64,000 nt of DNA from Ilex aquifolium (lineage: Eukaryota > Streptophyta > Magnoliopsida > Aquifoliales > Aquifoliaceae), in contig OX637391.1 in NCBI GenBank assembly GCA_951799425.1, positions 45,975,069-46,039,068 of the forward strand, in the 5' to 3' direction. Positions 3,401 through 45,244 of the stretch are shown here, one piece after another. Position 1 is the first letter of the stretch, and each line of letters begins with the position of its first letter. Below the pieces are notes generated by a model. It saw nothing but the letters and a program-made list of their open reading frames with translations, did no database searches and was not told where the DNA came from. Both the position numbers and the translations under genes were made by a program.

Positions 3401-3720
3401 ACTCCTGCCCCGCATGATTTAAAATTGTGCACAACTCAACCTACAAAAAAAATATTGCTCTTGGCCCAAATGAGCAAAAACTGTGTACGGCTTGACCAAA
3501 AATAAATGTTCATCCGCTCATTGACGCACGAGCCTAAACTACATGTTACTCATGGCCGCCATGAGTTAAAACTGTGTACAACTTAAAAAAAAACTATTTC
3601 TTTTGGTCCTGCCCGCATGAGTTAAAACTGTGTATAGCATAACCCAAAAAAAATCTATTTTTGCTCTTTAGTCTCATGAACCAAAACTATGATGGGTTCA
3701 ACTAAAAGGAAAAAAGAATA
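3385..3720. repeat. Degenerate tandem repeat
   Basis: The words CATGAGTTAAAACTGTGTA and (C/T)ATGTTACTC recur four to five times, separated by A-rich spacers, in a loose 60-90 bp periodicity. The array directly follows the gypsy gag fragment and may be part of that element or of its non-coding tail. Confidence 0.5.
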
Positions 3721-4369: not shown

Positions 4370-6276
4370 TGATTAGCACTTAAAATTAGCATATTACTAT
4401 GCCATTTTAAGACTAATTGTACTTTGATGGAGTTTAAGTGATGTCATTTCAGGCCTTAAACTGAACAAGGACTCAAGAACAACAAGTACCACACTTGGAT
4501 GCAACACCAGCACATTAGAGCTCAAAATTGGAGAAGCTTGGAGCACAGCCAGAACGTTCGAACGCCAACTCACGTTCGAACGTCCACATTACACTGTAGC
4601 AGACTTAACTGCTAAGAGAAGGCGTTTTGCAGTTAGGAAAGAAGACTGAAGCTCTGAGGCACTTGAGTGTCACGTTCGAACGCCAACTCACGTTCGAACG
4701 TGCACTTGAGTTGATTGAAGACCAGACTACTGCATAGAGTTGGAACTGAACTTCACAGAAGACCAACAGACCACTCGAGTGAAAGGGACAGAACACATCT
4801 GGCATTCGAACGCCCTTAGTGCAAAAACAGAAGAAACGTTCGAACGACCATAAAACAAAAACAAAAACAATGTTCGAACGCCAACTCACGTTCGAACGTT
4901 CTCCACAGACTGGCAGCAGAGTGGTTGGATTTTCACTTGGACTTGGGCGGCAAACACTATTCATTCACCTCCTCTTGCCTATAAATACTCCCCTTGTTGG
5001 AGAGCTAAAGGAGCCAAGTAGAAGGGTTGATGGAGGCTTAGACTCCCACTCACATTGTAGATTTAAGCTTATGTTTTTCTTGTATGAAGTCTTTATTTTA
5101 GAGATTAGTTTGGCTTTAGTCCAACATCTCCTTGTTTGTTATAAGAGTAGTTTTATGTTTATGCTTTCATTTACATGCATATAAGGGAGTTAGTTCATCT
5201 TTTGGTTGAGGAAGCAACCCTCCATTTCTTGGTTGAGGAAGCCACCCTCCAAATGTGACTAGCTTTCTTCTACTTTTATTGTTTATGTACTTCACTTTCA
5301 TTGCTTGAGCTTCTTTCTTTCTTAGATGAGTGAAACTCTTTCACTTTTCTAGAGTTTTACCAAAGTCGTGAAGGGTGGAATGTGATTCACTCAATCTTTG
5401 TTAAAGATTGGCTCCTTGTTCATTGTTATTTTATCTTTTAAGTCTTCTACTTGGAGAGATGAGCATCACTCACTTTTCTAGCTTTACCAAAGCCATGAAG
5501 AGTGAGTAGTTTCTCATTCACTCTTTAGTAAGAGGAGAAGGGCATGTATAAGTTATCCGGGAATTATATTTGTGCTATGTTCTAATGCTTAACGTTTATT
5601 TCTCTTTGTTTATTGGATGATTGATTGCATCTAGCAAAGCTTAGGTACTTTATATAATCGTGGGTTCTTTCTATGACATGGATGACTCTTGCATAGAAAG
5701 ACTTATCGGTTCAAGGCAAGCACCCCGGCTAGATCTTCAGGACTACCCTTCAATCCTCCCCCTTGTTGTGCTTCATTTAAAGAATGGAATATTAATATCA
5801 TGATTGGATGTCTTGTAGAAACACTTGCTTGTTTGTAGACGGGTTAAGTCTCGGCACAGACAATTCTTGTAAACTTCTAGAAAAACATCGGAATCATGTT
5901 CTTAATTCTCACAGTTCATCTTTATCTTCCGATTAACTTGCTGTTGACACGGGAGTTAATTGAGTTATCAAGCACAAGTATAATAAAGCAGATAATTAAC
6001 CACATGTCCAGATCCTCGAACTAAAGAGTGACCCTTTTTCATTAGCATTTATCTCCTGTTTTGTTAAGAAAATTCTCTTGGAAAGAATCTTATATTCTGT
6101 CCAGGAAATCTCACACCTCACAGCAAATCTCAAGGGTTACAAACAATAGGTCTCCATCACTGCTTATCTCAAAAATACCAACAACAGTTCCCTGTGGATT
6201 CGACTCCGGACTCAAACCGGATTATTACTACAGCTTGACCGCCTGCACTTGGGTGTACACATTTCGGATCAAGTCA
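4370..6276 (+). mobile_element. Solo LTR of a Ty3/gypsy-like element
   Basis: The 1,907-bp unit begins TGATTAGCAC, ends in AAGTCA, and is flanked by a perfect 5-bp duplication CTTCA (4365-4369 and 6277-6281). It contains a TATA box (CCTATAAATACTCC, about 4979) and, near the 3' end, the CCCTGTGGATTCGACTCCGG block common to long plant gypsy LTRs. No internal coding DNA is present, so it is a solo LTR left by LTR-LTR recombination. The sharp target duplication indicates moderate age. Confidence 0.85.
4555..4898. repeat. Clustered palindromic decamers (CGTTCGAACG) in LTR U3
   Basis: The dyad CGTTCGAACG or its core TTCGAACG occurs eight times: 4555, 4573, 4673, 4691, 4805, 4837, 4872 and 4889. 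Six of these form three pairs separated by the same 8-bp spacer CCAACTCA. The cluster ends about 80 bp before the LTR TATA box. This is the arrangement expected of reiterated transcription-factor sites, but no factor is assigned. Confidence 0.8.
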
Positions 6277-8195: not shown

Positions 8196-11100
8196 TTCAT
8201 GTGCACTTAATCACATTAGTTTGCACAACAACATACACAAAAACTGAAATCATATAAATTCTTAACTTTTGCGATGCAAAGTACAATGCTAAACAAAGTT
8301 TCTCTATTGACTTATAACATTGCTCGACCAGAATCAGAATTCTACTTAAATAATAATTGGCTTGTTCCTTCCCTATATTATTATTTTGAGCCAACAAACA
8401 CCCAATGGATTCGTGTGCGGCCGATAGGTACAATAGTAGTGGCCTATCTTTTAATAGGTGGCATGAGGATTGGCGAGTTTGCCAAATACTCCTTAATCTG
8501 GCAAAAAGCCTCTTGATGTCATGCTTCTCATCTGAAGTCTTCTACACCCTTTAGCTTCAAGAGCGGTGAGAATGTCTGCACTTTTCTTGTTCAGTTCATA
8601 ATGAATATTCAAAGGAAATAGACCTGACAGATCAGGCGTTGAAGCTTCTTCTTGGTCTTCGGAGGCGCGACCTCTATGATAGTCTTCGTCTTGTTTTTGT
8701 CTACTTCAATTCCCTTCTTGTGTGCCAGGAATCCAAGAAAGTTCCCCACTATAACCCCAAAGGCGCATTTTAGAGGTTTCATCTTCAGCTGGTGAATATG
8801 CATCCACTCAAAGACCGTCCTCAGATAGTCAAGGCGCCTCTCTGTGTCTTGAATTTTGACTATGATGTCATTACTGTATACCTCTACGATCTTACTAATC
8901 ATGTCATGGAAGACGATGCTTATGTCTCTCTGGTATATGGCCCTTGCATTCTTTAATTCGAAAGACATAACTCGCCATTCAAATGTCCCAATAAACCCAG
9001 GACATCGAAAAGCAGTTTTGTGCTGGTCTGTTTCCGCGATGAAGATCTGATGGTAGCCTGCCTTGCCATCCATAAATGACATGATTATATTCATGGTCAT
9101 CACGTCTACAAGTTGATCGGCCAGTGGCATGACATATTCATCTTTGGGTGTTGCGAGGTTTAATTTCATCTTTAGGGGTTGTGAGGTTTAAGCCGCGGTA
9201 TTCACAGCAAACCCTGATCTTGTTAGTCTTCTTCTTAACCGGCACAACATTGGATACCCATTCGACGTACCGTGCCAGCTGGATGCACTTAGCCTTCAAG
9301 AGGCGCCCAATCTCCTCCTTCACCAACAAGGTTGCCTCTTGGAACATCAACCTTGGGGCCTATTTAATTAGCATATATCCTTCCCTAATTTGTAGTTGAT
9401 ACTCCACTAAGGGCGGATCTAGCCCTGGCATCTCTTCATAACTCCAAGCGAAACAATCACAGTATTCCCTCAGTACCTATATAAGACGTGTTTGGAAGGC
9501 TCCAGCAGCTTGCTAACGAAATTCAAATGGTGCTCCCTCAACTCGCCGAGATTAACTTTGAGCAATGGATCCTGGACCTCGACCAAGTCGTCGAGTTTGG
9601 CGATAGTAACATAGATTTCATCCAGTTAGATGAACTCTCGGGAGGTCAACTGTCTGAGCTCTCCCTCCTCACATCCCACCATGTTAATGGTGTTTTGCTG
9701 TTTACTGGCCACTTGTAGTGTCGCAACCCTCTTTTTTGCCAGGTTTTATCCTGGCGATGTAGGCCCTCGCCGACTGTTTCCTTCATTTACTATTGCTGAG
9801 CTCCATCAATAAACGAGTTCTCTATTACTTCCATGTCGTTCGGCCTTTACACATTATTGGGCCGAAGGACCTGCTCTTCCTCCTAGTGAATCTTGGTGGA
9901 CTTCAAGTTGGTTTGGAATACAACTTTCGTAGTCTTCCCATACTTGTCTTGGCCCTGGAACTTCATTGGCCCTGGAATTTCATTGGCCCTATTCCTTCTT
10001 CTTAGAACCAAGCATCGGCCATGTTAACCTCAGTCACGAACGGAGTCTGGTCTGCCTCCATGACCTCTAAGTCATCGAGGTTCTACAGGACTAGCTTCTG
10101 ATGTAGAGTTAATGAGATGCACTCACTCAAATGGATCCAATCTCAACCCAAAAGAACGTTGTAAGACGTCTTTGTATCAATCACGAAGAACGGCGTGATG
10201 TTTGTCTTGTTACCGATAGCCAACTCGATGGTAAAACTCTCATCGTCTTATTGACTCATCTTGTGAATCCACTCACTGTCAATTTGATATGGACCAAGTC
10301 TTCCTCTTTCTTCATGGTAGCTATGTGAGGATGTTGACGGCCACTCCGTTATCACCCAAAACTCTATTGAAGGGTTTTTCCCTCCAAGGGCGCCTAGATA
10401 TAAAGTAGCTTTAAATGTTGTGTCATGGGCAGTGTAGGCTTGCTAAAAGACCAACCCTTGGGGCTGTTGGCAAACGGTAGTTTATCTATATGCTCTTCCT
10501 AGACCTAGCCTCTCTTAGGAGAGCGCTCCATCTTGCTTTCTGACGAATCTTACCTGTCTAAGAATATTGATCCCGGTGCCTTGGCGTCTTCAACATCTCT
10601 CTCCAAGGACTCTGTTTGCGGTCCTAGGCTTTTGAACAATGTTGGCAACACCCCGAGGGCATTGATGGACGTCGAATGCCCCAACGTACCGAGCAGGATG
10701 GAATCACCTCCATCGCTGCAATCCTCGTCGATGGGGTCCTACTTCTTTCCCCTTTTACAAGTCTCTAAGGGAATGTTGAGTGCAATTCTCATGCGCTCTA
10801 CCACCATTTTCACCATCTGCTCCTCAATGCTTTCCTTGGGTGGGGATTCAGGCTCCACTTTCTTCTTCCTTTTCTCCTTAACCGTAGCTTTTCTTAAGCC
10901 ACTGGACGTTGCAAAGGTAGTGAGGTACCAAATCAAGACATAATCTCCCCCACTTATGGGTGATGCCGCCGAAACATTTTTCATCCTTTGCGAGCCTCCA
11001 ACTTTTGAGATTTTTCTCATCTGCAAACATGTGGTTGAATGTGTTGCTTCCTACGCTTCTAACTTCAAGTTAGTGGTCATGGTTGGTGGTATTATGGAAA

Positions 11101-16760: not shown

Positions 16761-19700
16761 TTAAGGGAATGTGGATCTTTCCAAAGAAAAATTTGGTGAA
16801 GGTGGTTCTAGATATGCAGGAAGAGGCCGAGGCGCTTATCGTGGTCGTGGTCGTGGTCGTGGACAAGGATACAACCGAGCTGGTCGGGGTTATCAAAATG
16901 GTGGTAGAGGCAACCAAAGGCAGGACCATCAAGACAAGCAATGTTATTCGTGTAAGCAATATGGGCACATTTCACCAAATTGCCCAAACAAGGCTCAGCA
17001 GAAAGCCAACTTTGCTAAAGCAGAACAAGAGGAAGGTAACTTGTTTCTTACATGTCTAGAGTCAAAAGCAAGTATGGGTGATATGTGGCTCTTGGACAGC
17101 GGCTGTAGTAACCATATGACAGGGGAGAAAAGTCTCTTCCGTAGCATAGACGAATCTGCAAAATCAAAAGTACGACTGGGTGATAACAAGCAACTCCAAA
17201 TTGAAGGCAAGGGAACTATTGGAGCTAAATTCAAATCAGGTAGTGAACGATCTATCCATGATGTTTATTATTCTCCTGATTTAGCCCACAATTTGTTAAG
17301 TGTCGGTCAATTAGTCGAAAGAGGATATTCAATGTTGTTTGAAAATAATATGTGTGAAATTAAAAGAAAAGGGGTATCCGATAAACCTCTCGTTCAGATT
17401 CCCATGACTAAGAATCGGATGTTTCCCCTTGATCTTTCTTGTTTGAATGAGTGTGCATTGGTTGCTAATGTTAAAGACGATTCTAGACTTTGGCATTTAC
17501 GATACGGTCACTTGAATTTTAATGGGCTGAAGTTGTTAAATCAGAAGCATATGGTGTTTGGTTTGCCTTCAATCCATTGCATTGATGATGTCTGTGAAGG
17601 CTGCATATATGGGAAGCAACATAGGTTACCATTTCCTGTCGGCAAAGCTTGGAGAGCCAAGAAGCCTCTTGAAATTGTTCATGCTGATATATGTGGCCCA
17701 ACAAGGACCTTATCCTTCAATAAGAGTAGATATTTTTTACTCTTTACGGATGATTATACTCGTATGAGTTGGGTGTATTTCCTTTCTTACAAATCAGAAG
17801 CTTATGAAAAGTTTCAGGAGTTCAAAGCTTTTGCAGAAAAGGAAAGTGGGCAGGTCATAAAAGTTCTTCGCATTGATAGAGGGGGAGAGTTCTTATCCAA
17901 TGAGTTCACCTATTTTTGCAAGCAAAATGGGATTCAAAGGCATCTAACAGTGAGAAAAACCCCAGAACAGAATGGTGTTGCCGAAAGGAAGAACCGAACG
18001 GTGGTGGAGATGGCTAGAAGCATGCTAAGTGAGAAAGGACTGCCCAATGAATTCTAGGCTGAAGCAGTAGCTACATCCGTATTTCTTCTCAACATATCTC
18101 CAACTAAGGCTGTCCGAAACATGACTCCCTATGAAGCTTGGTGGAATCGAAAACCCAATGTAAGTCATCTAAAGATTTTTGGTAGCATTGCTTATTCTCT
18201 GATTGACTCTAATAACCGTTCTAAGCTTGATAAAAAGAGCGAGAAATGTATCTTTGTTGGGTATAGCGGTGAAACCAAGGGTTATCGGTTGTATAATCCA
18301 GAAAATGGGAAACTCGTTATTCGTCGAGATGTTGTATTCGATGAAAACAGTTTCTGGAATTGGAAAGAAGAACAAAATCAGCAAGTGCCTTTTGAGGATA
18401 TAGTCGAGCCGACACAAGCAACAGAGAATCAAGTGTCACCTCAGCGTTCTCCATCATCAAACTCATTGGGAAGGTCTACTTCAAGAGAATTAAATAATGA
18501 AGGCAGCGACAACTCAGATTCTGCACCTGATTCTGATACCCCTCCTCGTAAGTATCGATCTTTAGCCGAGATTTATGAATCATGCACTTTTGCTTTGTTA
18601 AGTGCAGAACCTGTTAACTATGAAGAAGCACAAGGGAAAGAAGAATGGGAGCAATCTATGCAAGAGGAAATTATTGCAATCGAAAAAAATGGCACGTGGG
18701 AGTTAGTAGACTTGCCATGTGAGAAGAAAGCAATTGGCGTCAAATGGATTTACAAGGTGAAATGCAATCCAGACGGAACCGTGCAAAAGTATAAAGCAAG
18801 GCTCGTTGCCAAGGGGTATGTGCAACAACAAGGTACTGATTTTATTGAGAATTTTTCTCCAGTAGCAAGATTTGAGACGGTTCGAATTGTTTTGGCTGTA
18901 GCTGCTCAAAATAAATGGCCTGTATTTCAGTTTGATGTTAAGTCGGCATTTCTAAATGGTTTTTTGGAAGAGGATGTGTATGTGGCACAACCACAGGGGT
19001 TTATAGTCGAAGGTCAAGAGGAGAAAGTTTACAAGCTTAAGAAGGCGTTGTACGGACTCAAGCAAGCTCCGAGAGCTTGGTATAGCAGGTTGGATACTTA
19101 TCTTCATCAAAATGGGTACCATAGAAGTGATAGCGAGCCGACATTGTATGTGAAGGTGACATGTACTGGTGATATCCTCATTATATGTGTCTATGTAGAT
19201 GATATTATATATACATCATCTTCTAACACTCTTGTCAAGGAATTCAAGGTCAGCATGATGCAGGAATTTGACATGACAGATTTGGGATCTATGCATTACT
19301 TTCTTGGCATCCAAGTTCAGCAAACAGATGAAGGAATTTTTATTTGCCAAGAAAAGTATGCACGGGAATTGCTGAAGAAGTTTAATATGATGGGTTGTAA
19401 AACCTCGTCTACTCCCATGAACCCAAATGAGAAGCTATGTGCGGAAGATGGGACTGCAAGGGCCGATGAAAGAATGTTCAGGAGCATGATTGGCGGACTG
19501 ATGTACTTAACCAACACCCGCCCAGATATAATGTTTTCTGTGAGTCTACTGTCCAGATTCATGCATACACCGACCATGCATCATCTCGGAACAGCAAAGA
19601 GAATCCTTCGCTATGTACAGGAAACTAACGATTATGGGATTTGGTACAAACCAGCTGCTGAATTCAGTTTAATTGGTTTTACTGATAGTGATTGGGCAGG

Positions 19701-20147
19701 TTTTGTGGATGATAGGAAAAGCACGAGTGGGTTTATATTCACTCTTGGCTCGGGGGCTGTGTCATGGTCTTCAAAGAAACAAGCAAGTGTTGCATTATCA
19801 TCTTCAGAGGCAGAATACATAGCAGCCTCATCTGCAACGTGTCAATCAATTTGGATGCGGCGAATTTTGGAGGATTTACATCAAGTTCAAGGAGCAGCCA
19901 CAAAGATTTACTGTGACAACAAGGCCACCATCTCTATGACTAAGAACCCGGTCTTCCATGGGAGAACAAAACACATTGAACTTCGACACCATTTCATTCG
20001 AGAAGCTGTTGCTAAAGGCATGGTAATGATGGAGCATTGCTCAACCAATGACCAAAGTGCAGATGGGTTTACAAAGGCACTCTCATATCCGAAGTTCGTG
20101 AAGTTTCGGTCCTCACTCAATGTTTCCAGTTTCGCATCAAAGGGGAG

Positions 20148-20472
20148 TGATAAGAATTGATGCAAAACGTGATTAATTTAGTTAGCAGAATTATGTTGAT
20201 TTAGTCTTTAACTGTTAACTAGAAAGCAGGAGAGGAGTTGCAGAAGACCTAGTCTGTAGTAGTTGCTTTTATTTAGGAATTAGTTGCTACTTTATAGGCA
20301 TTGTGGTTATGGTTTTAGGTTATAAATAAAGGGTGTAATCAGCCGTTGAATATATGAGAATTGCAGAGTATTTTTCTTCCATTTTGAATTGATAAAGCTG
20401 TAGCTTTTTTCTTCTCTCTGTTTTTACTCTGTATTCAAACTCTTGTTGCCTTTGTCTCTCTTATTTCCAACA
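20148..20472 (+). repeat. LTR of the young copia element, plus orientation (325 bp)
   Basis: Begins TGATAAGAATTG directly after the purine tract and ends TTATTTCCAACA. A TATA box (TTATAAATAAA) lies near 20322. Matches 21513-21210 base for base apart from a 21-bp segment bounded by short GTTGCT/GTAGTTGC repeats. Confidence 0.9.
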
Positions 20473-21192
20473 GTTTGTTACCAAATTTTTCTTTGGAAAG
20501 ATCCACATTCGACTGAAATGCCTGTTCCAGATTCTTATTTTCAGCCCTGTTCATCCTACCTTCATGTGCTAAAAGAGACCCCATTAAATCATTCAAAGAA
20601 TAAGTATTCATATCCTTAGATTCTTCAATAGCAGTAACTACATGATCCCACTTGGAAGGAAGACTTCGTAAAATCTTCTCAACTACTTTTTGATCAGAAA
20701 TATCTTCACCAAATGTTTTCATTTGATTTACTATGATAGATACTCTAGTAATGTAATCTTGCACTGATTCATTACCTTTCATAAGGAGTGTTTCGAAGTC
20801 CCGACGAAACGTTTGGAGTTTCACCATCGTTACCTTGCTATCTCCATGAAACTCCTGCCTCAAAATTTCCCATGCATCCTTCGATTTGGCAGCATTTGCA
20901 AGACGGGGAAAAATAGCCTCCGTCACAGCTTGTTGTAAAACAAGCAGGGCCTTCGCATCCTTCTTACGAAGCTCCCTCACCTCAGCTGCTGTATCTACAT
21001 AGCCAGATTCAACAAGCTCCCATAGGTCTTGTGAGATGAAAAAAGTCTTCATCTTAATGCTCCAGAACTCGTAGTTCTCTCCATTGAAAATTGGCACTAG
21101 AGACTGGTTTTGTGATACATTGAGAGAATTCATGATTTCTCCTCTTTGAAGCCTTTTCACAAACACCTCAAGCCCAATTGGATCAGACCTGG

Positions 21193-21204
21193 GCTCTGAT
21201 ACCA
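21193..21204 (-). other. Primer-binding site (initiator tRNA-Met type)
   Basis: On the minus strand TGGTATCAGAGC follows the LTR end after five bases. This is the standard plant copia primer-binding site, complementary to the 3' end of initiator tRNA-Met, and it identifies the adjoining LTR as the 5' LTR. Confidence 0.9.
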
Positions 21205-21209
21205 CAAAC

Positions 21210-21513
21210 TGTTGGAAATAAGAGAGACAAAGGCAACAAGAGTTTGAATACAGAGTAAAAACAGAGAGAAGAAAAAAGCTACAGCTTTATCAATTCAAAA
21301 TGGAAGAAAAATACTCTGCAATTCTCATATATTCAACGGCTGATTACACCCTTTATTTATAACCTAAAACCATAACCACAATGCCTATAAAGTAGCAACT
21401 ACTACAGACTAGGTCTTCTGCAACTCCTCTCCTGCTTTCTAGTTAACAGTTAAAGACTAAATCAACATAATTCTGCTAACTAAATTAATCACGTTTTGCA
21501 TCAATTCTTATCA
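21210..21513 (-). repeat. LTR of the young copia element, minus orientation (304 bp)
   Basis: Reverse complement of 20148-20472 apart from a 21-bp length difference. It lies about 210 bp beyond the stop codon of the ATL gene, so it may influence that gene's 3' end. Confidence 0.9.
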
Positions 21514-22720: not shown

Positions 22721-24762
22721 CTTCTTTTAAGTGTGCTAGCTTGGATCAGTAGGTGGTCAACTCTTGTGCATTTGCCTGTACCAGAAACTCCCTATGATTT
22801 TTTTAGGCATGCCATACCCACCCATGATTGTTATAAACTTATCACTTACTCCTAGAATATATTTACCTCCTAAGAATACTACTTTTGACATTTAAAACTT
22901 ATCAACTAATACTTTCTATGAAAATATCCAACAACATAATTATAATAATGCTACCGATATTTTGTCAGGTGCCACATCATTAAATAGGCAAAATATGTTA
23001 AAAAATTTTAGATCCGAATTACATTAGTGGATAGAGAATGGCAAGGATCCTTATCCATCATTAAGTTGCTCATCAAAGTTTTTAGAAAAAAAGAGGTTTG
23101 TATCAAAACTGTGTGCTTATCCGATCCCTGTCTCAATTACCCATAGTTTGAGAGTCAAAAAAAAAAACATTACCCACAGTTTTGACTCATTAAATATAGA
23201 TTACACAATTATTAATATGGCATGTGAGCAACCCTAAATCTCGTAAAAAAAGGTTTGCTCCCACATAAAATATATTGTGAGGAAAGTTGGTGGAAAGTTC
23301 TTAAATGGATTATTGAAAAAATATGAAAAGTATCCAAGCAGACCTAAACTCAGGAACTATTGGCTGTTTGGTTCAAGTAAGAAATAACTAATTTATCATC
23401 TTATTCTATCACATTCATATGCATCAATGCATGTTTGATTCAAGATTGGGGTAAGTCTGTGGATACATAATTATCATATTGCATGTGCATCGTACGTTTG
23501 AATTGAAAATAAAAACACACTTGTATCAAATCCCATCAAAAATCAAGTCTGGAATACTTGGCTCAATTTCATCATAATTGTAATATTAATCAAAATTAGT
23601 TTATCAATCAAAACATAGGTTGGTTTCTATAGTTATGTGATGTTATTTGAAATTATGGATTACAGCAAGTATTTGACACATGGTTCAAACCTAATATATA
23701 TTAAGTTATCATCAAACTTGCAAACTGTATCACACATCTGAATTACAACTTTCAAAAATGACAGAAATTCATTCAAGATGAGGCTTCTCAAAACGACAAG
23801 TAGAGCAAGTCAAGTACTTATCCGTCTAAACGATACATCGAGAGTTTAAATTTGAGAATTAGTCAATCAAATGGTAAAGTTGACTACTGTTTATTTAAGG
23901 GAACATTACAGGAAGTTTCACAATTTATTTTCATCAAAATGCAGTTATGATGCATTTATCAAGGTTTTAGTGGCAATCTCGGCTGCTTCTAAACGGGAAT
24001 TGTGTTGGGGAGTGTTATATGATTTTGTTCAACAGAAGTGTATATGCCACCAAATGGATTTTAACATTCTCTAGGCTTCACCAACTTTCATTCTCTCTCT
24101 TTTTTGGGGGGAAATACTACTTGGACTCTAAAAGTTGACGCTATTTGTTGACTCCATCCATTACAATCATTGAATAAGTAATGGATCCGAATAAATGCTA
24201 GGATCCATGGTTAAATGAGTGATTGATAAAATCAACAAATGGTGTTAACTTTTGAAATCCAAGTAGCACTTTCTCTCCATGGTAAATTGTCTGTCACGTC
24301 TTGGAATATAAGTATAACCCTCTTATATAAAGTTAATCCACTTGAATTCACGGCATGATATACTATTAAAAAAATCAAAGAAATGTGGATTTTAAAAGCA
24401 TCTAAATCCGCTTCCTCCCTACATGGTGGTTGACTTAATCAACTAAATTTTGTTATAAGCAATGCACAGAAAAATAAATAAATAAAATAAGCAATGACTT
24501 CATTAGATGGCCCTGGATTTCTTGCAGCAAGCAACTAAGGAGGGTCTCTAAGTTGAGAAAATATTCATTACAACAGTGTTATTATGTCAGTATTGCCATG
24601 TAGTATCACCAATCAATAATGTGTAAATAAATAAGAAAATAGACTCCACACAAACTAATAACTATCGGTTTATGTAAGTCAATAACTACATACTTTTCTT
24701 CTATTTAAGTCAATAACTACCGAAGTAAGGTTCACCTTACTCATTTGGTGTTTTATTATTGA
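22720..24762. other. Intergenic DNA upstream of ATL copy 1, homologous to 50690-51700
   Basis: AT-rich, without a supported gene. Blocks at 22800-22830, 23755-23790 and 23935-24085 match 50712-50745, 51270-51300 and 51530-51700 in the same order (for example CAGAAATTCATTCAAGATG and CCACCAAATGG). The reading frame at 23871-24074 is not preserved in the other copy, so it is probably non-coding. Nothing else is recognised. Confidence 0.55.
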
Positions 24763-24800
24763 CTAGTAATAACCCGTGCCTAAAGGCACTTTGCCACCTA
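24763..24800 (-). terminator. Helitron 3' end: hairpin plus CTAG
   Basis: GTGCCTTTAGGCAC (24789-24776 on the minus strand) is a perfect palindrome, ending about 10 bp before the CTAG terminus (24766-24763). It is the termination hairpin typical of Helitron 3' ends. Confidence 0.9.
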
Positions 24801-26759
24801 AAAAAACCCGACAATTTGAAATAAATTTTCCTTCAGTTGCTTTAATTAAAAAAATTGAATCAATCAAGTCTCCACTATTTTTTTCAAAAAATTTCAACAG
24901 AATTTTCTATAAATGTAAGAGCTTAAAAAAAATCTTAACCTGTCTACAGAGCTTATATATCTCATTATATATATCATTGCCCAACACAACCCATCGCATA
25001 ATCAATCTCAAGAAAAATTTACTCGATGAACCAAACAAATCAAAGAAAAAAAATTCACAATTCACTACATAATTCAAACCAATCAAAGAACCAAAATTAA
25101 CAGTTCACAATTATACATAAAAATTATCATAATTTAAACAAAACATATAACCATCAAAATTATATATAATAATCATCACAATTCAACTCTATTTTCCACA
25201 AAATCACCACTCCAAATAACCCAATTTTATACTTAAATGGAATCCATGAAGCCACCAAACATATCTCCAAAATAAAACATAGCAAACATAGAAAGCACTT
25301 GACATCCAAGAGGGGTCTCTTTCATAGTAGTTGTCGATAGATACATATAGGCACCACACTTGTAGAAAACACACCTCCACCGTTGCCCCAACCTGTAACC
25401 ACCGCTTCCGAGCACCCAATCCACGTCAATCGATCGCAGTGTTCATTATAAACATTTCTAGTAAGATCAAACTGAAATTAAAAAACTACATAGTTAGCAT
25501 AAAAACAAAGATTGAAAAACAAAATCATTGTGCATTGCGGAAATTAAACTAAAACACTATTTATTTTAAAACTACATACTAATTCAAGTTTAAAGCAAAA
25601 AAAGTGGCGTACCAAAAAAAAATCACATACTAAATCACTAAACGAAATCCCACAAATATGAATATGTTTCAACAACCAATTTAGTGTAATCATCTTCAAA
25701 GCATACATACAATGTGCTTCGTCTTTGATTTGCTTAGTTGGAAATCAATAAAACATTGGTCAAAATAAAAAATAAAACAATAGCAAGGTTATTACTACAT
25801 AACACTCAAGTAAACCAACAATAAGTACCCAAAACCATATTAGTGCCATCAAATAGAAGTTGAACATTGAATTAATTTATCAATCAAACAAAAACAATAT
25901 TGTAAGCAAGAGAAAGAAAAAAGATGTATGTTAAAGAAGTAAAGAAAATTTCAAAACTCTTTGTAGCACCCAATTACACGCATAAACTTCTTTCACATGC
26001 CAAAAACAAATGTTAAATCAAGTACCTTAAAGGAATAACAAAAAATAGATGATTTATAAATAAACCAACTAAGAGAAGCACATAACCTTGCGAGCAATGA
26101 CTGGAGATTTCAACAAATGTAGTGGGGCAAGCAGCTTCACTCTCTACACAATTTTTGGTATCCAATTTCGTGTGGCTACAAAATTGAACAATCCCAAATA
26201 ATTAAACAATCCCAAGAAAAGTAATAAAAACAAAATAACTCCAAACTAAAATCCAATTGAGTATCAATAAACCTCAAATTCAATTGTGAGTTTCAAGGAA
26301 ACCAAACAATGTAACATCAAATAAAATCAAGTAAGAACTCACAATCCTCAATTCAAGATTCCAATAAAGTAATCAAACCTAAAATTCAAATCAAATCAAA
26401 TCAAACCATAGCAAAATCAAACCCAAAGTAATCACAACCTTATTTGAAAACTAAACCTAAATTTTCATGAAATCAAACCTACTTAGAAAGCTCACATCAA
26501 CTCAAATCTAAAGTAATCGTAAAATGAACCTAAACAAATAATAGAACAAAAACCCATGATAGAACAAAATACCCAACGGAAAATCCCAAATAAAAATCCT
26601 AAATAAAAATCCTACAGTCCTATCATTTAATTTCTTACAAAACTTATCAAACCATTATGAGAAAACACTCAAATTAACACCCAATATGAGAAAATTCATA
26701 GAAAAGTTACAAAATACCCAAAAATATCAAACAAATACAAAACACCCAAAATATCAAAC

Positions 26760-27030
26760 GAATGTGTTGTGTGTGCTGCTCTGTGCCTGTGTGTGTGTGT
26801 CGTTGCTGCTACTGCTACTGCTCTATGTGTGTGTGTGTGTGTATAGTGAGTGGGTGAGTGCGATGTATGTGTGGGTGTGTATCTATATGTGCGATGTGTG
26901 TATGTGTGTGCTAGTGTGTGTGTGTGTTCGACTGTCTAAGAATCATGATATAGAGAGACGTAGAGGGTGTGGGATTTATGTGTGTGTGTGTGAGTCGTGA
27001 TCGAGAGAGAGAGAGAGAGAGAGAGAGGGG
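26760..27030. repeat. GT-rich and (GA)n simple repeats, arm 1
   Basis: Mixed GT/TG tracts are followed by a GA run of about 26 bp (27003-27028). The corresponding CT run in the other arm (31530-31587) is roughly twice as long, the largest visible difference between the arms. Confidence 0.9.
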
Positions 27031-27042
27031 TACCTGCGCCAT

Positions 27043-27172
27043 GGCCTAAGTTGGGTCTTCTTCCGCGGAGGAGCCAGAGGTGAACGATTGAGAGAGAGAA
27101 AAGGAGAGAGGGAGCCTGAGTTGGGTCTTCTTCCGCAAAGGAGCCAGAGGTGAGAGATTGAGAGAGAGAAAA
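27043..27172. repeat. Two-copy tandem repeat of about 70 bp
   Basis: GGGTCTTCTTCCGC followed by GGAGCCAGAGGTGA and GATTGAGAGAGAG occurs twice with a period of about 70 bp. The same pair is found in the inserted copy at about 31388-31517. Confidence 0.8.
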
Positions 27173-28591
27173 TGAGTGTTTGAATTGGGTTGCTTGGGGG
27201 TGCCGTGTGGGTGTAGCTTTAATGGGCGTGTTTTTTTTTGGGTTGAGATGCATTGCAAGCCATTGGATTGAAATTGAATAAGTGAGATGAAATGTGGGCC
27301 TTTGAATTAAAAGTGGATTTAATCTGAGCCGTCATTGTGCTTTCCCAAATGAATTTAAATTAAATTAAATTTTGAATTGAAAAATATTCAAATTGGGTTC
27401 TATCAGTATAGATGACAAAATTTACTTTAAAAACATAATATAAAAAATAGCAACATGTGTACATAATTGGTACAAATCTACTTATTATTAAGAAACATAT
27501 GAATTTAAAGAAAACACAGCCCAATTCATTTATCAGATTCAATATCACACCCCAATTCTACCTCAACAAAATCATTTATCAACTCCCGCCACAACATAGT
27601 AATAACAACAATAGAATAAAATTCAAATTTATCCATATAAATTTGCATATATTAAATCCACCACGCTAAGACAACATTAATTGCATAAATATCAAATACA
27701 TCTTCGAGAATGAAAATAAATAAAAGCATCGACATATGCACACATATAACTACTAAAAAATGCAAGAACTTGGAGGAGGCAAAACTAACCCATCATTCTT
27801 AACACCTATCGCAACATAAAAAACCTTGCATAAGATCATTACCACTATATCAACCAATAAATCCACCTTACTAAAGAGATATTCAAGTCAAATATCCATG
27901 AGTCTACCATACACATACCCGAACCCACCTGCAATAGAGCAGTTGAACAAATATTCAAGTCAAATAAATCCACCTTACTAAAGAAATATTACAAACACAT
28001 AGATGTACTTGATCTGTTGTGACTAACTACACATGACTAACTTGGTTAGTAACAGTAGAAGATTAGATCATCTATAAATATTAGTTGTATCTGAAAATTG
28101 TTCTTTGAAATCTCTCTTATCTTATCTTCTCCTATGTTTTGTGTTCACAAATCTAAGAGTTAATCTCTCAAATTTACAGCCTCATCACATTGTTAGCATT
28201 CAAAAATTGAAAAGAACCTTAAAATTTAAGAGGTATCCCAGCTACTGCAATTGAATAACATGTTCCATCAAACGCATGCTTCTTACCCAATTTACGAACA
28301 GGCCATTGTCATCGCTTCCCTCAAACTCATGCTTAATGATTGATTCAAACCACAAACCACTCTGCCAATCAATTAATAATCAAAAACTCAATCACCAAAA
28401 ATTACATGAAAAGGCAAAACCTTGAATGTGAGAAATTGAACCATAAACTTGAAAACCCAAACCTAAGATTAGAATAGCAAAAGGAACCATGAATGTGAGA
28501 AATGAAGCTTCATCTATACTAATAAAATAGAACCCAATTTGAATCTTTAAGTTGGGAAAGCACAAGAACAGTTCAGATTTGTTTAAAAATT

Positions 28592-29026
28592 TTGATCCAA
28601 TGGTCCAAAATTACTCTCACAAAATTTTCCCCCTCACATATGTCACATCCAAACCCAAATCCTAATGCTCTAAAATTGATCCAAAGGTTGAAATCACTCC
28701 AATCCTTCTCTCACGAGTCTTCTCTCTCTTCCCTCACCCCTCTCAACTTCAATTCTCTTAACCACTCCCCCGCATACCCAACGTCTCTCTGCCCCATCTC
28801 CCTTATAGCTCTCACCCTCTCTTTGCTCCTCTCCCTCCTTCTTTCTCACCCTCCTCTCTGTTCTCCCACCCTCATATCAGTCGAAGGAAACCACCGCCTC
28901 CCAGTAGCGACAACAAAGGCGATGCTTCCCAGCTCTACCAACGGTCAAGTATCTCTCTCAGTGGTAAGGACCTATCTCCAATTCCTAAAACCCCAACCCT
29001 TAGCTGATGGTTTCTCTTTCAACTGA
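28592..29026 (+). other. Proline/serine-rich reading frame inside the Helitron, possible captured 5' exon
   Basis: A 144-codon frame, repeated on the other strand at 35277-34843. It is CT-rich and may be no more than 5'-UTR-like sequence. After a run of small and serine residues it shows NGQVSLSV, ending at a plausible splice donor (GGTAAGG near 28962). Helitrons often carry host exon pieces. I cannot identify a parent gene. Confidence 0.3.
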
Positions 29027-30198
29027 TATTCCTTCGGTTATTATGGGTGAAATCAAGCCCATGATTTCCAACTGATATTCTTTTGGTTATTACCAGATTT
29101 CCAAGAGAAGACCAGCGCCAGCGCCGCAACACTGGCGTAGCTCTGAATTAGTTTCCTTCCTCCCCCTCCCCTCCCTTCCCTTTCTTTCTCTCATCCTCTC
29201 TGCGCACAAACCACCCCCAAACCCTCTATATTTCACCCACCCACACCATTTTCTCATTCTCTTACGCACTTCTCTCCTCCCTCTCTCTAGCTTCCCTCTC
29301 TATTCTCTGGCTGTCTCTCCGAAATCCCTCAGAGCACACTCCGAAACTCCTTACATCTGTGTCAACACACCCACACCCTCACAGCACAAACACCCACCAA
29401 AACCACATCCATCGCCATCACCACCACATCCCCTTCCTCCTCTGCCTCCACCCCTTCATATCATCACCACCCACCACATGTTTGATGGTTTGCTTCAAAG
29501 AAAATACATTATCAAATCCCAAGTTTTTGATGGTTTACATCTACTAATTTATGTGTTCAATCTCATTCTGGGTCACCTCATTTTCTAATTATAGGTAAGC
29601 CCTATAGTGATTTTAGTTTTTACACATGCAATATTCTTAAACCTACATATTTTAGTTTTAACCTACATATCTGCGACATTGTTTTTTTTTTTCATACATA
29701 TTTTTAGGTTATGAATGGAATGAGGAGGTTTAAAGGTGGCTGTTTTAATATGCTTATTTGTTGTTTCAGTTGGTAAAGGTAATAATTTATTAATGCAATT
29801 TCTAGAAATTTGTTATTTTGAGTCTATTGGGATAAAGTAGCTGTTGTAGTTGTTTTAAATGTTGGAAAGCCCTAATTTTTTATCCTAGAAGTGTTGTAGT
29901 TCCCTTTTTTTTTTGTAATGTGAGCGGACTATTTTTGTAAATACGGAAACTATGAGTTTATGTAGACTTGATTCTTGCTTAGAGCATTTGAGCTTCCCAT
30001 TTTTTAAATTTGTGCTTCTGCTATAATTGCCAAATATATTACATATTTGAAGCTTCATTTCTCACATTCATGGTTCCTTTTGCTATTCTAATCTTAGGTT
30101 TGGGTTTTCAAGTTTATGGTTCAATTTCTCACATTCAAGGTTTTGCCTTTTCATGTAATTTTTGGTGATTGAGTTTTTGATTATTAATTGATTGGCAG

Positions 30199-30273
30199 AG
30201 TGGTTTGTGGTTTGAATCAATCATTAAGCATGAGTTTGAGGGAAGCGATGACAATGGCCTGTTCGTAAATTGG
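30199..30273 (+). other. Exon-like block with intact splice borders in the Helitron
   Basis: A 75-bp block preceded by ATTGGCAG and followed by GTAAGAA reads through in one frame (begins SGLWFESIIKHEFEG). It has GT-AG borders and a length divisible by three, and it recurs on the other strand at about 28288-28362. It could be a host exon picked up by the Helitron. No parent gene is recognised. Confidence 0.4.
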
Positions 30274-31147
30274 GTAAGAAGCATGCGTTTGATGGAACAT
30301 GTTATTCAATTGCAGTAGCTGGGATACCTCTTAAATTTTAAGGTTCTTTTCAATTTTTGAATGCTAACAATGTGATGAGGCTGTAAATTTGAGAGATTAA
30401 CTCTTAGATTTGTGAACACAAAACATAGGAGAAGATAAGATAAGAGAGATTTCAAAGAACAATTTTCAGATACAACTAATATTTATAGATGATCTAATCT
30501 TCTACTGTTACTAACCAAGTTAGTCATGTGTAGTTAGTCACAACAGATCAAGTACATCTATGTGTTTGTAATATTTCTTTAGTAAGGTGGATTTATTTGA
30601 CTTGAATATTTGTTCAACTGCTCTATTGCAGGTGGGTTCGGGTATGTGTATGGTAGACTCATGGATATTTGACTTGAATATCTCTTTAGTAAGGTGGATT
30701 TATTGGTTGATATAGTGGTAATGATCTTATGCAAGGTTTTTTATGTTGCGATAGGTGTTAAGAATGATGGGTTAGTTTTGCCTCCTCCAAGTTCTTGCAT
30801 TTTTTAGTAGTTATATGTGTGCATATGTCGATGCTTTTATTTATTTTCATTCTCGAAGATGTATTTGATATTTATGCAATTAATGTTGTCTTAGCATGGT
30901 GGATTTAATATATGCAAATTTATATGGATAAATTTGAATTTTATTCTATTGTTGTTATTACTATGTTGTGGCGGGAGTTGATAAATGATTTTGTTGAGGT
31001 AGAATTGGGGTGTGATATTGAATCTGATAAATGAATTGGGCTGTGTTTTCTTTAAATTCATATGTTTCTTAATAATAAGTAGATTTGTACCAATTATGTA
31101 CACATGTTGCTATTTTTTATATTATGTTTTTAAAGTAAATTTTGTCA

Positions 31148-31527
31148 TCTATACTGATAGAACCCAATTTGAATATTTTTCAATTCAAAATTTAATTTAA
31201 TTTAAATTCATTTGGGAAAGCACAATGACGGCTCAGATTAAATCCACTTTTAATTCAAAGGCCCACATTTCATCTCACTTATTCAATTTCAATCCAATGG
31301 CTTGCAATGCATCTCAACCCAAAAAAAAACCCACCCATTAAAGCTACACCCACACGGCACCCCCAAGCAACCCAATTCAAACACTCATTTTCTCTCTCTC
31401 AATCTCTCACCTCTGGCTCCTTTGCGGAAGAAGACCCAACTCAGGCTCCCTCTCTCCTTTTCTCTCTCTCAATCGTTCACCTCTGGCTCCTCCGCGGAAG
31501 AAGACCCAACTTAGGCCATGGCGCAGG

Positions 31528-31590
<63 letters not shown>

Positions 31591-33823
31591 CACGACTCAC
31601 ACACACACACATAGATCTCACACCCTCTACGTCTCTCTATATCATGATTCTTAGACAGTCGAACACACACACACACTAGCACACACATACACACATCGCA
31701 CATATAGATACACACCCACACATACATCGCACTCACCCACTCACTATACACACACACACATAGAGCAGTAGCAGTAGCAGCAACGACACACACACACAGG
31801 CACAGAGCAGCACACACAACACATTCGTTTGATATTTTGGGTGTTTTGTATTTGTTTGATATTTTTGGGTATTTTGTAACTTTTCTATGAATTTTCTCAT
31901 ATTGGGTGTGAATTTGAGTGTTTTCTCATAATGGTTTGATAAGTTTTGTAAGAAATTAAATGATAGGACTATAGGATTTTTATTTAGGATTTTTATTTGG
32001 GATTTTTCGTTGGGTATTTTGTTCTATCATGGGTTTTTGTTCTATTATTTGTTTAGGTTCATTTTACGATTACTTTAGATTTGAGTTGATGTGAGCTTTC
32101 TAAGTAGGTTTGATTTCATGAAAATTTAGGTTTAGTTTTCAAATAAGGTTGTGATTACTTTGGGTTTGATTTTGCTATGGTTTGATTTGATTTGATTTGA
32201 ATTTTAGGTTTGATTACTTTATTGGAATCTTGAATTGAGGATTGTGAGTTCTTATTTGATTTTATTTGATGTTACATTGTTTGGTTTCCTTGAAACTCAC
32301 AATTGAATTTGAGGTTTATTGATACTCAATTGGATTTTAGTTTGGAGTTATTTTGTTTTTATTACTTTTCTTGGGATTGTTTAATTATTTGGGATTGTTC
32401 AATTTTGTAGCCACACGAAATTGGATACCAAAAATTGTGTAGAGAGTGAAGCTGCTTGCCCCACTACATTTGTTGAAATCTCCAGTCATTGCTCGCAAGG
32501 TTATGTGCTTCTCTTAGTTGGTTTATTTATAAATCATCTATTTTTTGTTATTCCTTTAAGGTACTTGATGTAACATTTGTTTTTGGCATGTGAAAGAAGT
32601 TTATGCGTGTAATTGGGTGCTACAAAGAGTTTTGAAATTTTCTTTACTTCTTTAACATACATCTTTTTTCTTTTTCTTGCTTACAATATTGTTTTTGTTT
32701 GATTGATAAATTAATTCAATGTTCAACTTCTATTTGATGGCACTAATATGGTTTTGGGTACTTATTGTTGGTTTACTTGAGTGTTATGTAGTAATAACCT
32801 TGCTATTGTTTTATTTTTTATTTTGACCAATGTTTTATTGATTTCCAACTAAGCAAATCAAAGACGAAGCACATTGTATGTATGCTTTGAAGATGATTAC
32901 ACTAAATTGGTTGTTGAAACATATTCATATTTGTGGGATTTCGTTTAGTGATTTAGTATGTGATTTTTTTTTGGTACGCCACTTTTTTTGCTTTAAACTT
33001 GAATTAGTATGTAGTTTTAAAATAAGTAGTGTTTTAGTTTAATTTCCGCAATGCACAATGATTTTGTTTTTCAATCTTTGTTTTTATGCTAACTATGTAG
33101 TTTTTTAATTTCAGTTTGATCTTACTAGAAATGTTTATAATGAACACTGCGATCGATTGACGTGGATTGGGTGCTCGGAAGCGGTGGTTACAGGTTGGGG
33201 CAGCGGTGGAGGTGTGTTTTCTACAAGTGTGGTGCCTATATGTATCTATCGACAACTACTATGAAAGAGACCCCTCTTGGATGTCAAGTGCTTTCTATGT
33301 TTGCTATGTTTTATTTTGGAGATATGTTTGGTGGCTTCATGGATTCCATTTAAGTATAAAATTGGGTTATTTGGAGTGGTGATTTTGTGGAAAATAGAGT
33401 TGAATTGTGATGATTATTATATATAATTTTGATGGTTATATGTTTTGTTTAAATTATGATAATTTTTATGTATAATTGTGAACTGTTAATTTTGGTTCTT
33501 TGATTGGTTTGAATTATGTAGTGAATTGTGAATTTTTTTTCTTTGATTTGTTTGGTTCATCGAGTAAATTTTTCTTGAGATTGATTATGCGATGGGTTGT
33601 GTTGGGCAATGATATATATAATGAGATATATAAGCTCTGTAGACAGGTTAAGATTTTTTTTAAGCTCTTACATTTATAGAAAATTCTGTTGAAATTTTTT
33701 GAAAAAAATAGTGGAGACTTGATTGATTCAATTTTTTTAATTAAAGCAACTGAAGGAAAATTTATTTCAAATTGTCGGGTTTTTTTAGGTGGCAAAGTGC
33801 CTTTAGGCACGGGTTATTACTAA
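31148..33823 (+). repeat. Inner 2.68-kb Helitron-like subunit of the inserted copy
   Basis: A second 5'-type end, A followed by TCTATACTGATAGAACCC, starts at 31148; from there to the CTAA at 33823 could be a shorter Helitron. It carries an ATGGCGCAG followed by GT (31518-31528) and exon-like blocks with AG/GT borders at 32411-32499 and from about 33114. These may be captured gene pieces of unknown origin. Confidence 0.6.
31530..31588. repeat. (CT)n microsatellite, arm 2
   Basis: A CT run of about 57 bp, the expanded counterpart of the GA run at 27003-27028. Confidence 0.95.
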
Positions 33824-35626
33824 TATGTAATATATTTGGCAATTATAGCAGAAGCACAAATTTAAAAAATGGGAAGCTCAAATGCTCTAAGCAAGAATCA
33901 AGTCTACATAAACTCATAGTTTCCGTATTTACAAAAATAGTCCGCTCACATTACAAAAAAAAAAGGGAACTACAACACTTCTAGGATAAAAAATTAGGGC
34001 TTTCCAACATTTAAAACAACTACAACAGCTACTTTATCCCAATAGACTCAAAATAACAAATTTCTAGAAATTGCATTAATAAATTATTACCTTTACCAAC
34101 TGAAACAACAAATAAGCATATTAAAACAGCCACCTTTAAACCTCCTCATTCCATTCATAACCTAAAAATATGTATGAAAAAAAAAAACAATGTCGCAGAT
34201 ATGTAGGTTAAAACTAAAATATGTAGGTTTAAGAATATTGCATGTGTAAAAACTAAAATCACTATAGGGCTTACCTATAATTAGAAAATGAGGTGACCCA
34301 GAATGAGATTGAACACATAAATTAGTAGATGTAAACCATCAAACACTTGGGATTTGATAATGTATTTTCTTTGAAGCAAACCATCAAACATGTGGTGGGT
34401 GGTGATGATATGAAGGGGTGGAGGCAGAGGAGGAAGGGGATGTGGTGGTGATGGCGATGGATGTGGTTTTGGTGGGTGTTTGTGCTGTGAGGGTGTGGGT
34501 GTGTTGACACAGATGTAAGGAGTTTCGGAGTGTGCTCTGAGGGATTTCGGAGAGACAGCCAGAGAATAGAGAGGGAAGCTAGAGAGAGGGAGGAGAGAAG
34601 TGCGTAAGAGAATGAGAAAATGGTGTGGGTGGGTGAAATACAGAGGGTTTGGGGGTGGTTTGTGCGCAGAGAGGATGAGAGAAAGAAAGGGAAGGGAGGG
34701 GAGGGGGAGGAAGGAAACTAATTCAGAGCTACGCCAGTGTTGCGGCGCTGGCGCTGGTCTTCTCTTGGAAATCTGGTAATAACCAAAAGAATATCAGTTG
34801 GAAATCATGGGCTTGATTTCACCCATAATAACCGAAGGAATATCAGTTGAAAGAGAAACCATCAGCTAAGGGTTGGGGTTTTAGGAATTGGAGATAGGTC
34901 CTTACCACTGAGAGAGATACTTGACCGTTGGTAGAGCTGGGAAGCATCGCCTTTGTTGTCGCTACTGGGAGGCGGTGGTTTCCTTCGACTGATATGAGGG
35001 TGGGAGAACAGAGAGGAGGGTGAGAAAGAAGGAGGGAGAGGAGCAAAGAGAGGGTGAGAGCTATAAGGGAGATGGGGCAGAGAGACGTTGGGTATGCGGG
35101 GGAGTGGTTGAGAGAATTGAAGTTGAGAGGGGTGAGGGAAGAGAGAGAAGACTCGTGAGAGAAGGATTGGAGTGATTTCAACCTTTGGATCAATTTTAGA
35201 GCATTAGGATTTAGGTTTGGATGTGACATATGTGAGGGGGAAAATTTTGTGAGAGTAATTTTAGACCATTGGATCAAAATTTTTAAATAAATCTGAACCG
35301 TTCTTGTGCTTTCCCAACTTAAAGATTCAAATTGGGTTCTATTTTATTAGTATAGATGATAAAACTATGTAACAATATTGACATGATATTACCGTTGCAT
35401 TGAATATTTATTAAAGTTCGCTGCCCGCTTCCCCGTATGGAAATCAACCCGGTTTCAAAAGTTGTCATCTAAGACAATTGTCTCAAATATATCTGAACAA
35501 AAATAATGTTGTTGCAGTCTTCTAGTTCAGTTGCTAATTGCATGGTGGGTTGCTCCGAATTTTTTTATTGGTAGAGTAGTTTTTTAACTTTTTATCACAT
35601 GGTAGCTTCATACTTATTTATTAAAT

Positions 35627-42450: not shown

Positions 42451-45244
42451 CTGTTTCTATTTTAATAACTTACTGTTTTCCTAATTTGAATGTTTTGTGA
42501 TATGTGTTTATCAGAAATGGATGCAAATGATAATAATATTCCTGCTACTATAAATCATGTTGTGCCTGTGGTGCCTATTTCTGTTCCAACTCATGTGTCT
42601 CATGGGGAGAAACCCGAAAAGTTCAATGGGAACGATTTCAAGAGATGGCAACAGAAAATGATGTTCTATCTCACTACGTTGAATCTTGCAAAGGTTCTTC
42701 GTGAGGATGCTCCTGTTTGTAGTGAGAATGAGACCGACCGCCAAGTTGTTGCTGCGGTAGATGCATGGAAGCATTCTGATTTTCTGTGCAAAAATTATAT
42801 CCTCAATGGATTGGATAACACATTATATAATGTGTATAGTCCAATCAAGACGGCTAGAGAGCTGTGGGAATCCTTGGATAGGAAATACAAAACGGAGAAT
42901 GCCGGAATGAAGAAATTCGTTGTGGGCAGATTCCTTGATTATAAAATGGTGGATTCCAAGACTATCATAAGTCAAGTTCAAGATCTTCAAGTGATCCTAC
43001 ATGAGATTCATGCCGAAGGGATGGTGCTTAGTGAATCTTTCCAAGTGGCTGCAATTATTGAGAAATTACCGCCAAATTGGAAGGACTTCAAAAATTATTT
43101 AAAGCACAAACGCAAAGAAATGAAACTTGAAGACTTGATCGTGAGATTGAGGATTGAGGAGGACAATAGAATCTCCGAAAAGAAGGTTGGCAATCATTCC
43201 ATGGAGTCAAAGGCACATGTGATTGAAGAGGGACATAAAACCAACAAGAAAAGGAAGTATGTTAGCCAACAAGGGGCCAAGGGTGGTGATTCCAAAAAGT
43301 TCAAAGGCAACTGCTTTGTGTGCAATAAACCAGGACATCGTGCAAAGGATTGTCGAAGCCGTAAAGCACAAGTGAACCATAAGAGGAAGGCTGCCCAAGC
43401 CAATATAACCGAGGTAGAAAAACTGTCTGATAATGTTTCTAACTTAAGTTTTTCTGCTGTAGTATCCGAAGTCAACTTGGTGGGAAATACCAAGGAATGG
43501 TGGGTGGACACCGGGGCCACTAGACACATATGTTCGGATAAGAAGATGTTCTCTTCATATGAAGCAGTTAATGATGGAGAACAACTGTTCATGGGAAATT
43601 CCTCTACTTCCAAAGTTGAAGGCAAAGGAAAGGTTATATTGAAGATGACTTCCGGAAAAGAACTTACTCTCAATGATGTGTTACATGTTTCAGAAATTCG
43701 AAAGAATCTTGTGTCTGGATCGTTGTTGAGTAAGAAGGGTTTTAGGTTGGTTTTTGAATCCGACAAATTTGTACTCACCAAGAGTGGGATTTATGTAGGC
43801 AAGGGATATATGAGCGATGAGCTCTTTAAGATGAATGTAATGACAATTGTATCAAAGTTTAATAATAAGAACACATCTTCTGCTTATTTGCTTGAGTCTT
43901 CCAATGTATGGCATGGTAGATTAGGACATGTTAATTTTGATACTATGCGTAAATTAATGAATTTAGAATTGTTGCCTAAATTCAATATTGATGCAAATCA
44001 TAAATGTGAGACATGTGTTGAATCAAAATTAACAAGAACATCATTTCATACTATTGAAAGAAGCACTGAACCTCTAGAGTTAATTCATAGTGATACATGT
44101 GATTTAAAATATGTTCAAACTAGAGGTGGGAAAAAGTACTTTGTTACTTTTATTGATGATTGCACAAGATATTGCTATGTATATTTGCTAAGGAGTAAAG
44201 ATGAAGCATTAGAAAAATTTATGCATTATAAGAATGAGGTTGAGAATCAACTTGGCAAAAAGATTAAGGCAATAAGAAGTGATCGAGGTGGTGAATATGA
44301 TGCACCTTTCGATAGGTTCTGTCAAGAACATGGTATTATTCACCAAACTTCTGCACCTTATACACCTCAGCAAAATGGGATTGCTGAACGTAAAAATAGA
44401 ACATTGAAAGAGATGATGAATGCCATGTTGATTAGTTCGGGATTACCTCAGAACTTGTGGGGGGAAGCTTTGCTTTCAGCAAACTATATTTTAAATAAAT
44501 TACCCCACAAGAAATTAGACAAAACCCCTTATGAATTATGGAAAGGTCGGAGTCCTTCCTACAAATATTTAAAAGTGTGGGGGTGTTTGGCTAAGGTGAT
44601 GGTTCCTATTCCCAAAAGGATTAAAATAGGACCTAAGACTATTGATTGTATATTTATTGGTTATGCAATAAATAGTAGTGCATATCGTTTTCTAGTGCAT
44701 AAATCTGATATTCCTGATATACATGTCAAACAGGTTTTGCAATCTAAAAATTTTCAAAAACACTTTCTTAAAATTTTTTTAAAAAACTATTTTCGGATAC
44801 TATTTTTTGAGATGCAAACCAAACATACCTTATATTTCTTGAAAACTAGGGTTTTGATAACAATAACGAGAGTTTTTATAGCTATCAAACGATAGCCTTA
44901 TTCAAGACATGATATGATTTGCAAGAAAATCAAGAAACAATGATTCTATAACATATATATACGATTTAGAATCAAAACATACATATATAGTAATCCTATC
45001 CTCAATGAACAAGTTTAGGAAGAAACCCCTACCTTGATTTCCGTAGTTTGTGTGTAAACTTCGCGTGGTTGATCCGTTTCAACGTGAGAATCTCTTTTGT
45101 ATCTTTTGTTTTCTCCTTCTCTCTCGCTCTCTAGGGATGCCTAGGGTTGAAAACTAATGAAACATGACTAAATAGACATCTTTATGGTAATTATAGGATG
45201 AAAAACGTAGAAAAACTCTAAAACTGAGCGGGGCCATTTTTAGG

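Follow-up and report, generated by a model that had tools for sequence, protein, structure and literature searches.

The window examined here, a 64,000-nucleotide stretch of the Ilex aquifolium genome (C1:45975069-46039068), contains a 5.3-kb Helitron inserted in opposite orientation within a near-identical copy of itself. This inverted self-insertion is real and fairly recent. The element is a chimera composed of the 5′ part of a parent-type Helitron (P) and the whole of a second, short Helitron (S), and a stepwise history of non-autonomous Helitrons, in which fusion was followed by inverted self-nesting, is very probably the best explanation of the locus. Genome-wide statements refer to a search of 800 Mb in 103 contigs.

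The inner Helitron (28513-33823, plus strand) is 5311 bp long and lies within an outer copy of 5283 bp that reads in the opposite direction (35356-33824, continued at 28512-24763). With A and B denoting the parts of the element on either side of the insertion point, the order along the plus strand is outer B reversed (24763-28512), inner A (28513-30047), inner B (30048-33823), and outer A reversed (33824-35356). The outer copy itself splits a miniature inverted-repeat transposable element (MITE). The features of the locus are as follows.

24554..24762, plus strand: left piece of the MITE, adjoining the outer Helitron at its 3′ end; placed by alignment with MITE copies L019-L022, left limit approximate
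24763..28512, minus strand: second piece of the outer chimeric Helitron (element bases 1534-5283), aligned to the inner copy, with the 3′ hairpin and an end at 24763 that reads CTAG followed by T
24763..27412, minus strand: S part of the outer copy, with the internal 5′ end at 27412 and a 5-bp deletion identical to that of the inner copy
24776..24789, minus strand: outer 3′ hairpin
28513..33823, plus strand: inner chimeric Helitron, 5311 bp, within the outer copy; delimited by alignment, its nested 5′ junction unique in the genome
28513..31147, plus strand: P part of the inner copy (5′ portion of a parent-type Helitron), matching the C16 copy (L012) as far as the joint
31148..33823, plus strand: S part of the inner copy (short Helitron, its internal 5′ end carrying the 5-bp deletion)
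33797..33810, plus strand: inner 3′ hairpin
33824..35356, minus strand: first piece of the outer chimeric Helitron (element bases 1-1533), with the 5′ end at 35356 reading TC after A
35357..35413, plus strand: right piece of the MITE with its other terminal repeat, adjoining the outer Helitron at its 5′ end; once joined, the two flanks match L019-L022 across the junction, right limit approximate

An earlier note on this DNA described the locus as a 10.6-kb palindrome of the form A-B-A′-B′, with 3.75-kb arms around a 1.5-kb spacer that would fold in RNA into a long hairpin. The arrangement of the four parts, the arms, and the spacer all stand, but the locus is not a simple palindrome. Pairing of the two B parts gives a 3.75-kb stem with a 1.5-kb loop, pairing of the two A parts gives a 1.53-kb stem with a 3.8-kb loop, and the two pairings cross, as they must in any inverted self-insertion. 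The locus is therefore two interleaved inverted repeats with crossing stems, and cannot fold as a whole into one plain hairpin. A repeat search of the window recovered the identical inverted pairs, broken into pieces.

Alignment of the inner and outer copies over their whole length bears out the reversed recurrence of 28513-30047 at 35356-33824 and of 30048-33823 at 28512-24763, as well as the near identity noted for the arms. The alignment spans 5315 columns with 5258 matches and contains 21 mismatches in 5279 aligned bases (0.40%; 17 of the 21 are transitions), together with three indels, one of TT where the inner copy is inserted, one of 30 bp within a CT repeat, and one of 4 bp (ACAC). Inverted arms of kilobase length with 99.6% identity far exceed chance. 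The proposed genome-wide search for other 5.3-kb copies yielded two more at full length, on C10 (L009) and C3 (L010), and a C12 copy (L011) of which the 8-kb stretch taken holds only the first 1177 bases. Inner and outer copies differ less from each other than from the C10 copy (1.06% and 1.01%, respectively) or the C3 copy (1.53% and 1.46%), and C10 and C3 differ from each other by 1.88%. Seven sites unite the inner and outer copies against C10 and C3, a single site disagrees, and another shows three different bases. In addition, the 5 bp AATAA are deleted from the internal 5′ end in both the inner and outer copies and present in C10 and C3, and this shared deletion supports their close kinship. 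Trees, for which the boundary between P and S was set one base later than in the feature list, join the two with support of 0.866 for the P part and 0.965 for the S part. The inner and outer copies are thus closer kin to each other than to any other copy in the comparison. At substitution rates between about 2.5e-9 and 1.3e-8 per site and year, 0.40% corresponds roughly to 0.15-0.8 million years since the inner and outer copies split, a figure that is not the date of the insertion.

The same closeness could have arisen if two copies from different sources had been homogenized by gene conversion, since inverted arms are able to convert, and one stretch of about 1.37 kb is without mismatch. However, each arm carries the share of differences that its length predicts (arm A has 7 of the 21; p = 0.64), so that conversion is not needed to account for them and is an unlikely source of the similarity.

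Both insertions can be set against uninterrupted targets. The outer copy splits a dispersed repeat of approximately 0.27 kb with terminal inverted repeats, the MITE listed above. Its left flank has 44 matches in the genome, the window counted, and four that carry a second, reversed terminal piece were taken for comparison (L019-L022). The joined flanks of the outer copy align across the junction with all four, on the left over 162-164 of 208-209 bases and on the right over 47-51 of 75, the final bases of the 75 falling outside the repeat. The insertion point lies between A and T in three of the four MITE copies and between G and T in L021. For the inner copy, the unbroken target ACATATTTGAAGC is present at all seven loci that match the pattern, which represent four separate copies (inner, C10, C3, and C16). 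The nested 5′ junction, in turn, occurs once in the genome at up to two mismatches. Mobility of the 10.6-kb nest as a single unit was considered and rejected, as a second genomic copy of this junction was not found. Taken with the divergence of 0.40% against 1.01-1.53%, the uninterrupted targets and the unique junction make insertion of a Helitron, reversed, into a near-identical copy the best explanation, as the earlier note had proposed. Its further statement that the outer copy resumes exactly is slightly off, the resumption being 2 bp short of ACATATTTGAAGC.

These junctions also bear on two explanations that dispense with self-transposition. Against a misjoined or falsely duplicated inverted copy in the assembly stand the 21 base differences and three indels scattered across the element, the placement of the breakpoints at Helitron ends, and the occurrence of both targets in uninterrupted form elsewhere; such an artefact is barely credible. 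A segmental inverted duplication followed by rearrangement would fit the close relationship of the two copies, the 2 bp missing at the junction, and the TCA that precedes the 5′ end of both. Nevertheless, the inverted unit is bounded by Helitron termini, the copies have no common flank beyond TCA, and the outer copy is broken at a single point, which together make a segmental origin very improbable.

The ends of the two copies are those of canonical Helitrons. In line with the original description, both begin with TC after A, as do the C10 and C3 copies, and both carry a 3′ hairpin and a CTRR end before T. The 14-base hairpin, GTGCCTTTAGGCAC, is followed by 13 bases and then by the T of the host; the element closes with CTAG in the outer copy and with CTAA in the inner one (33820-33823). 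The 27-bp 3′ terminus has 61 exact matches in the genome (with either A or G accepted as the final base; control 0), of which 60 end in CTAG. The outer copy in the MITE, S in P, and the C10 and C3 copies in their flanks all sit between A and T with no duplication of the target, and the inner copy likewise lies between A and T with 2 bp of target missing. The suggestion that the family has no Rep or helicase of its own agrees with the coding content. Fifteen open reading frames (ORFs) of at least 70 aa are listed for the inner element, and no Pfam family scored above the cut-off in the eight of the 15 that were run; two weak matches below the cut-off were neither Rep nor helicase. By their ends, their A/T sites, and the Pfam result for these eight ORFs, the inner and outer elements are probably non-autonomous canonical Helitrons. 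A further Helitron-like 3′ end, with a similar hairpin and CTAG followed by T, lies at 47027 on the minus strand of the window.

Within the element, a second Helitron 5′ end, which the earlier note had overlooked, follows GTCA at inner base 2636, which is position 31148 in the inner copy and corresponds to 27412 in the outer copy. The C16 copy (L012), which has its own 5′ end after A, continues past this joint into TTTTTTTATATTG and ends approximately 220 bases on with its own hairpin and CTAG. A genome search with this P tail, in which 40 of 518 candidates were scored, gave at least 49 matches. At least 26 of these start at the joint, and among the 21 inspected, 20 are uninterrupted and one (L049) is unclear. 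The sequence that begins at the joint also exists by itself, as L014, L015, and L017 are short Helitrons that start with the internal 5′ end and lie in different flanks; the S 3′ terminus is identical in L015 and L017 and differs by one base in L014. Since there is an internal 5′ end, the C16 copy runs through the joint, and free-standing copies of S exist, the 5.3-kb element is the 5′ part of P joined to the entire S, with the P tail left behind, and it has two 5′ ends and one 3′ end. The P-S joint occurs four times in the genome (up to two mismatches; control 0), in the inner, outer, C10, and C3 copies, all of them full length. These four fusions lie in four different flanks and have the P 5′ end and the S 3′ end in common, and a tree of the S part (nine copies, two of them partial) splits them from the five others with support of 0.972.

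It may be asked whether P and S were fused by deletion or recombination between neighboring Helitrons, rather than by a transposition that ended at the S terminator. That a donor locus was not found and that about 2.2 kb of the C16 relative is absent from the fusion would both fit such an origin. Yet the joint is a clean insertion of the S 5′ end into P between A and T, and four fusions in different flanks have the same P 5′ end and S 3′ end, making deletion or recombination improbable.

The favored history of fusion and self-nesting starts from the observed joints, the uninterrupted targets, the surviving relative of P, and the relationships among the copies. First, S would have entered P in the same orientation, at an A/T site approximately 220 bp before the P 3′ end. 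Rolling-circle transposition would then have begun at the P 5′ end and halted at the first terminator encountered, the S hairpin with CTAG. The 5′ part of P and all of S would thereby have moved as a 5.3-kb fusion, of which there are now four full-length copies. Finally, one fusion copy would have entered the MITE to give the outer copy, into which a close relative, perhaps a daughter of the outer copy, would have inserted in the opposite orientation, between A and T and 1.53 kb away from the outer 5′ end. Rolling-circle movement and takeover of the terminator are suggested by analogy with work on Helraiser (PMC4778049) and a model for Fusarium Helitrons (PMC5148889), and the Rep-helicase would presumably have been supplied in trans.

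Several observations weigh against this history. The outer flanks at 28512/33824 read ACATA/TGAAGC, which is 2 bp short of ACATATTTGAAGC, so two target bases are missing; these were either lost during insertion or already absent from the outer copy. The inner copy is the only one of the 61 exact termini with a final A (CTAA), which together with the missing bases makes up the single irregularity of the inner insertion. In the short copy L015, the base before the 5′ end is G instead of A. The C16 relative is not the actual parent, as it differs from the fusions by 4.5-4.9% in the aligned parts and holds, in two stretches, the approximately 2.2 kb that the fusion does not have. Because the P tail follows none of the four fusions, the donor locus, with S inside P and the P tail after it, was not found, and it may be lost. 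Lastly, an intact autonomous partner that carries these ends was not found.

As to the AATAA deletion, it may have disabled the internal 5′ start. A more far-reaching proposal, tentative and rather doubtful, is that a single genome preserves the successive stages in the origin of a new Helitron family, namely a parent relative, an insert, a fusion whose internal 5′ end is complete (C10 and C3), a fusion with the 5-bp deletion (inner and outer), and a self-nest of this last form; the deletion would have disabled the internal start, so that the fusion could then move only as a whole.

A possible source of Rep-helicase was sought in the same genome, which has 150 scored Helitron Rep stretches above the cut-off (204 candidates), some with open frames of more than 1100 aa. 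Comparison by eye of the 61 termini with the Rep matches gave one same-strand pair approximately 5 kb apart. This is a decayed element at C3:42208469 (L063:3994-9054), which contains Helitron_like_N (7.3e-24) and PIF1 (1.7e-71) in separate open pieces and, approximately 5 kb on, the 27-base 3′ terminus of the family; over its last 225 bases it matches the 3′ end of the C16 copy at 70.7% identity. The reading frames of the element are interrupted, and the stretch taken shows no 5′ end. From this sequence likeness, the decayed element appears to link the 3′ end of the family to a Rep-helicase lineage, a link that does not imply a role as present-day partner. Motif scans of the partial element stretches L050-L059, L060, and L061-L062 gave no shared ends. 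A C5 copy of more than 12 kb was considered as an autonomous element and rejected, its long ORFs being retrotransposon-like by eye.

Self-insertion has already been proposed as a process for Helitrons, and the locus is a clear, well-resolved example of it. In the portions of the Fusarium oxysporum study drawn on here (PMC5148889), same-orientation nesting is modeled to give a chimeric element in which two 5′ ends go with a single 3′ end (Fig. 7), opposite-orientation nesting is drawn (Fig. 8), and one Helitron nested in another is reported; both modeled events match those at the Ilex locus. The duplicated 5′ sequence in Fusarium is typically less than 200 bp, and an opposite-orientation nest is offered there as an explanation. 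In Ilex, by contrast, a parent relative, S, four fusions, a full inverted nest, and the uninterrupted targets are found in one genome, and the ends are canonical. According to the sections used of the Helraiser study (PMC4778049), termination occurs at the 3′ hairpin, and if that hairpin fails, a further terminator downstream can take over. Helraiser / Helibat1 has in common with the Ilex elements the TC and CTAG ends, the 3′ hairpin terminator, the A/T target, and the choice of an alternative terminator. However, the usual terminator is bypassed in that system, whereas here a nearer one would have come from an inserted Helitron, and the Ilex elements have no transposase. Maize Helitrons (PMC2267711), as far as the consulted text describes them, include one inserted at another, but these lie side by side and are dissimilar, whereas here one lies within a near-identical copy. 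Maize Mu killer, in the part of PMC3440606 used, likewise involves inverted transposon copies and a potential hairpin RNA, but it includes a transposase gene in duplicate and acts to silence MuDR/Mu lines; in the Ilex elements no transposase domain was found. The passages available from PMC4289320 and PMC4067079 describe no like case. The Ilex arrangement may already be in print.

The locus addresses the question of how Helitrons acquire new sequence and new ends. With a parent relative, an insert, a fusion, and uninterrupted targets in one genome, a model that had been drawn becomes a testable case, and the point that can be tested is whether a Helitron 3′ terminator can serve a 5′ end upstream of its own. 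Hairpin-derived small RNAs may in addition arise from the inverted nest, a natural candidate for such a source.

Elsewhere in the window, ORFs of Copia-type retrotransposons (gag, integrase, and RVT_2) are present at 16765-21286 and 42490-44892, and a fragment of an RVT_1 reverse transcriptase domain lies at 8612-9187 on the minus strand.

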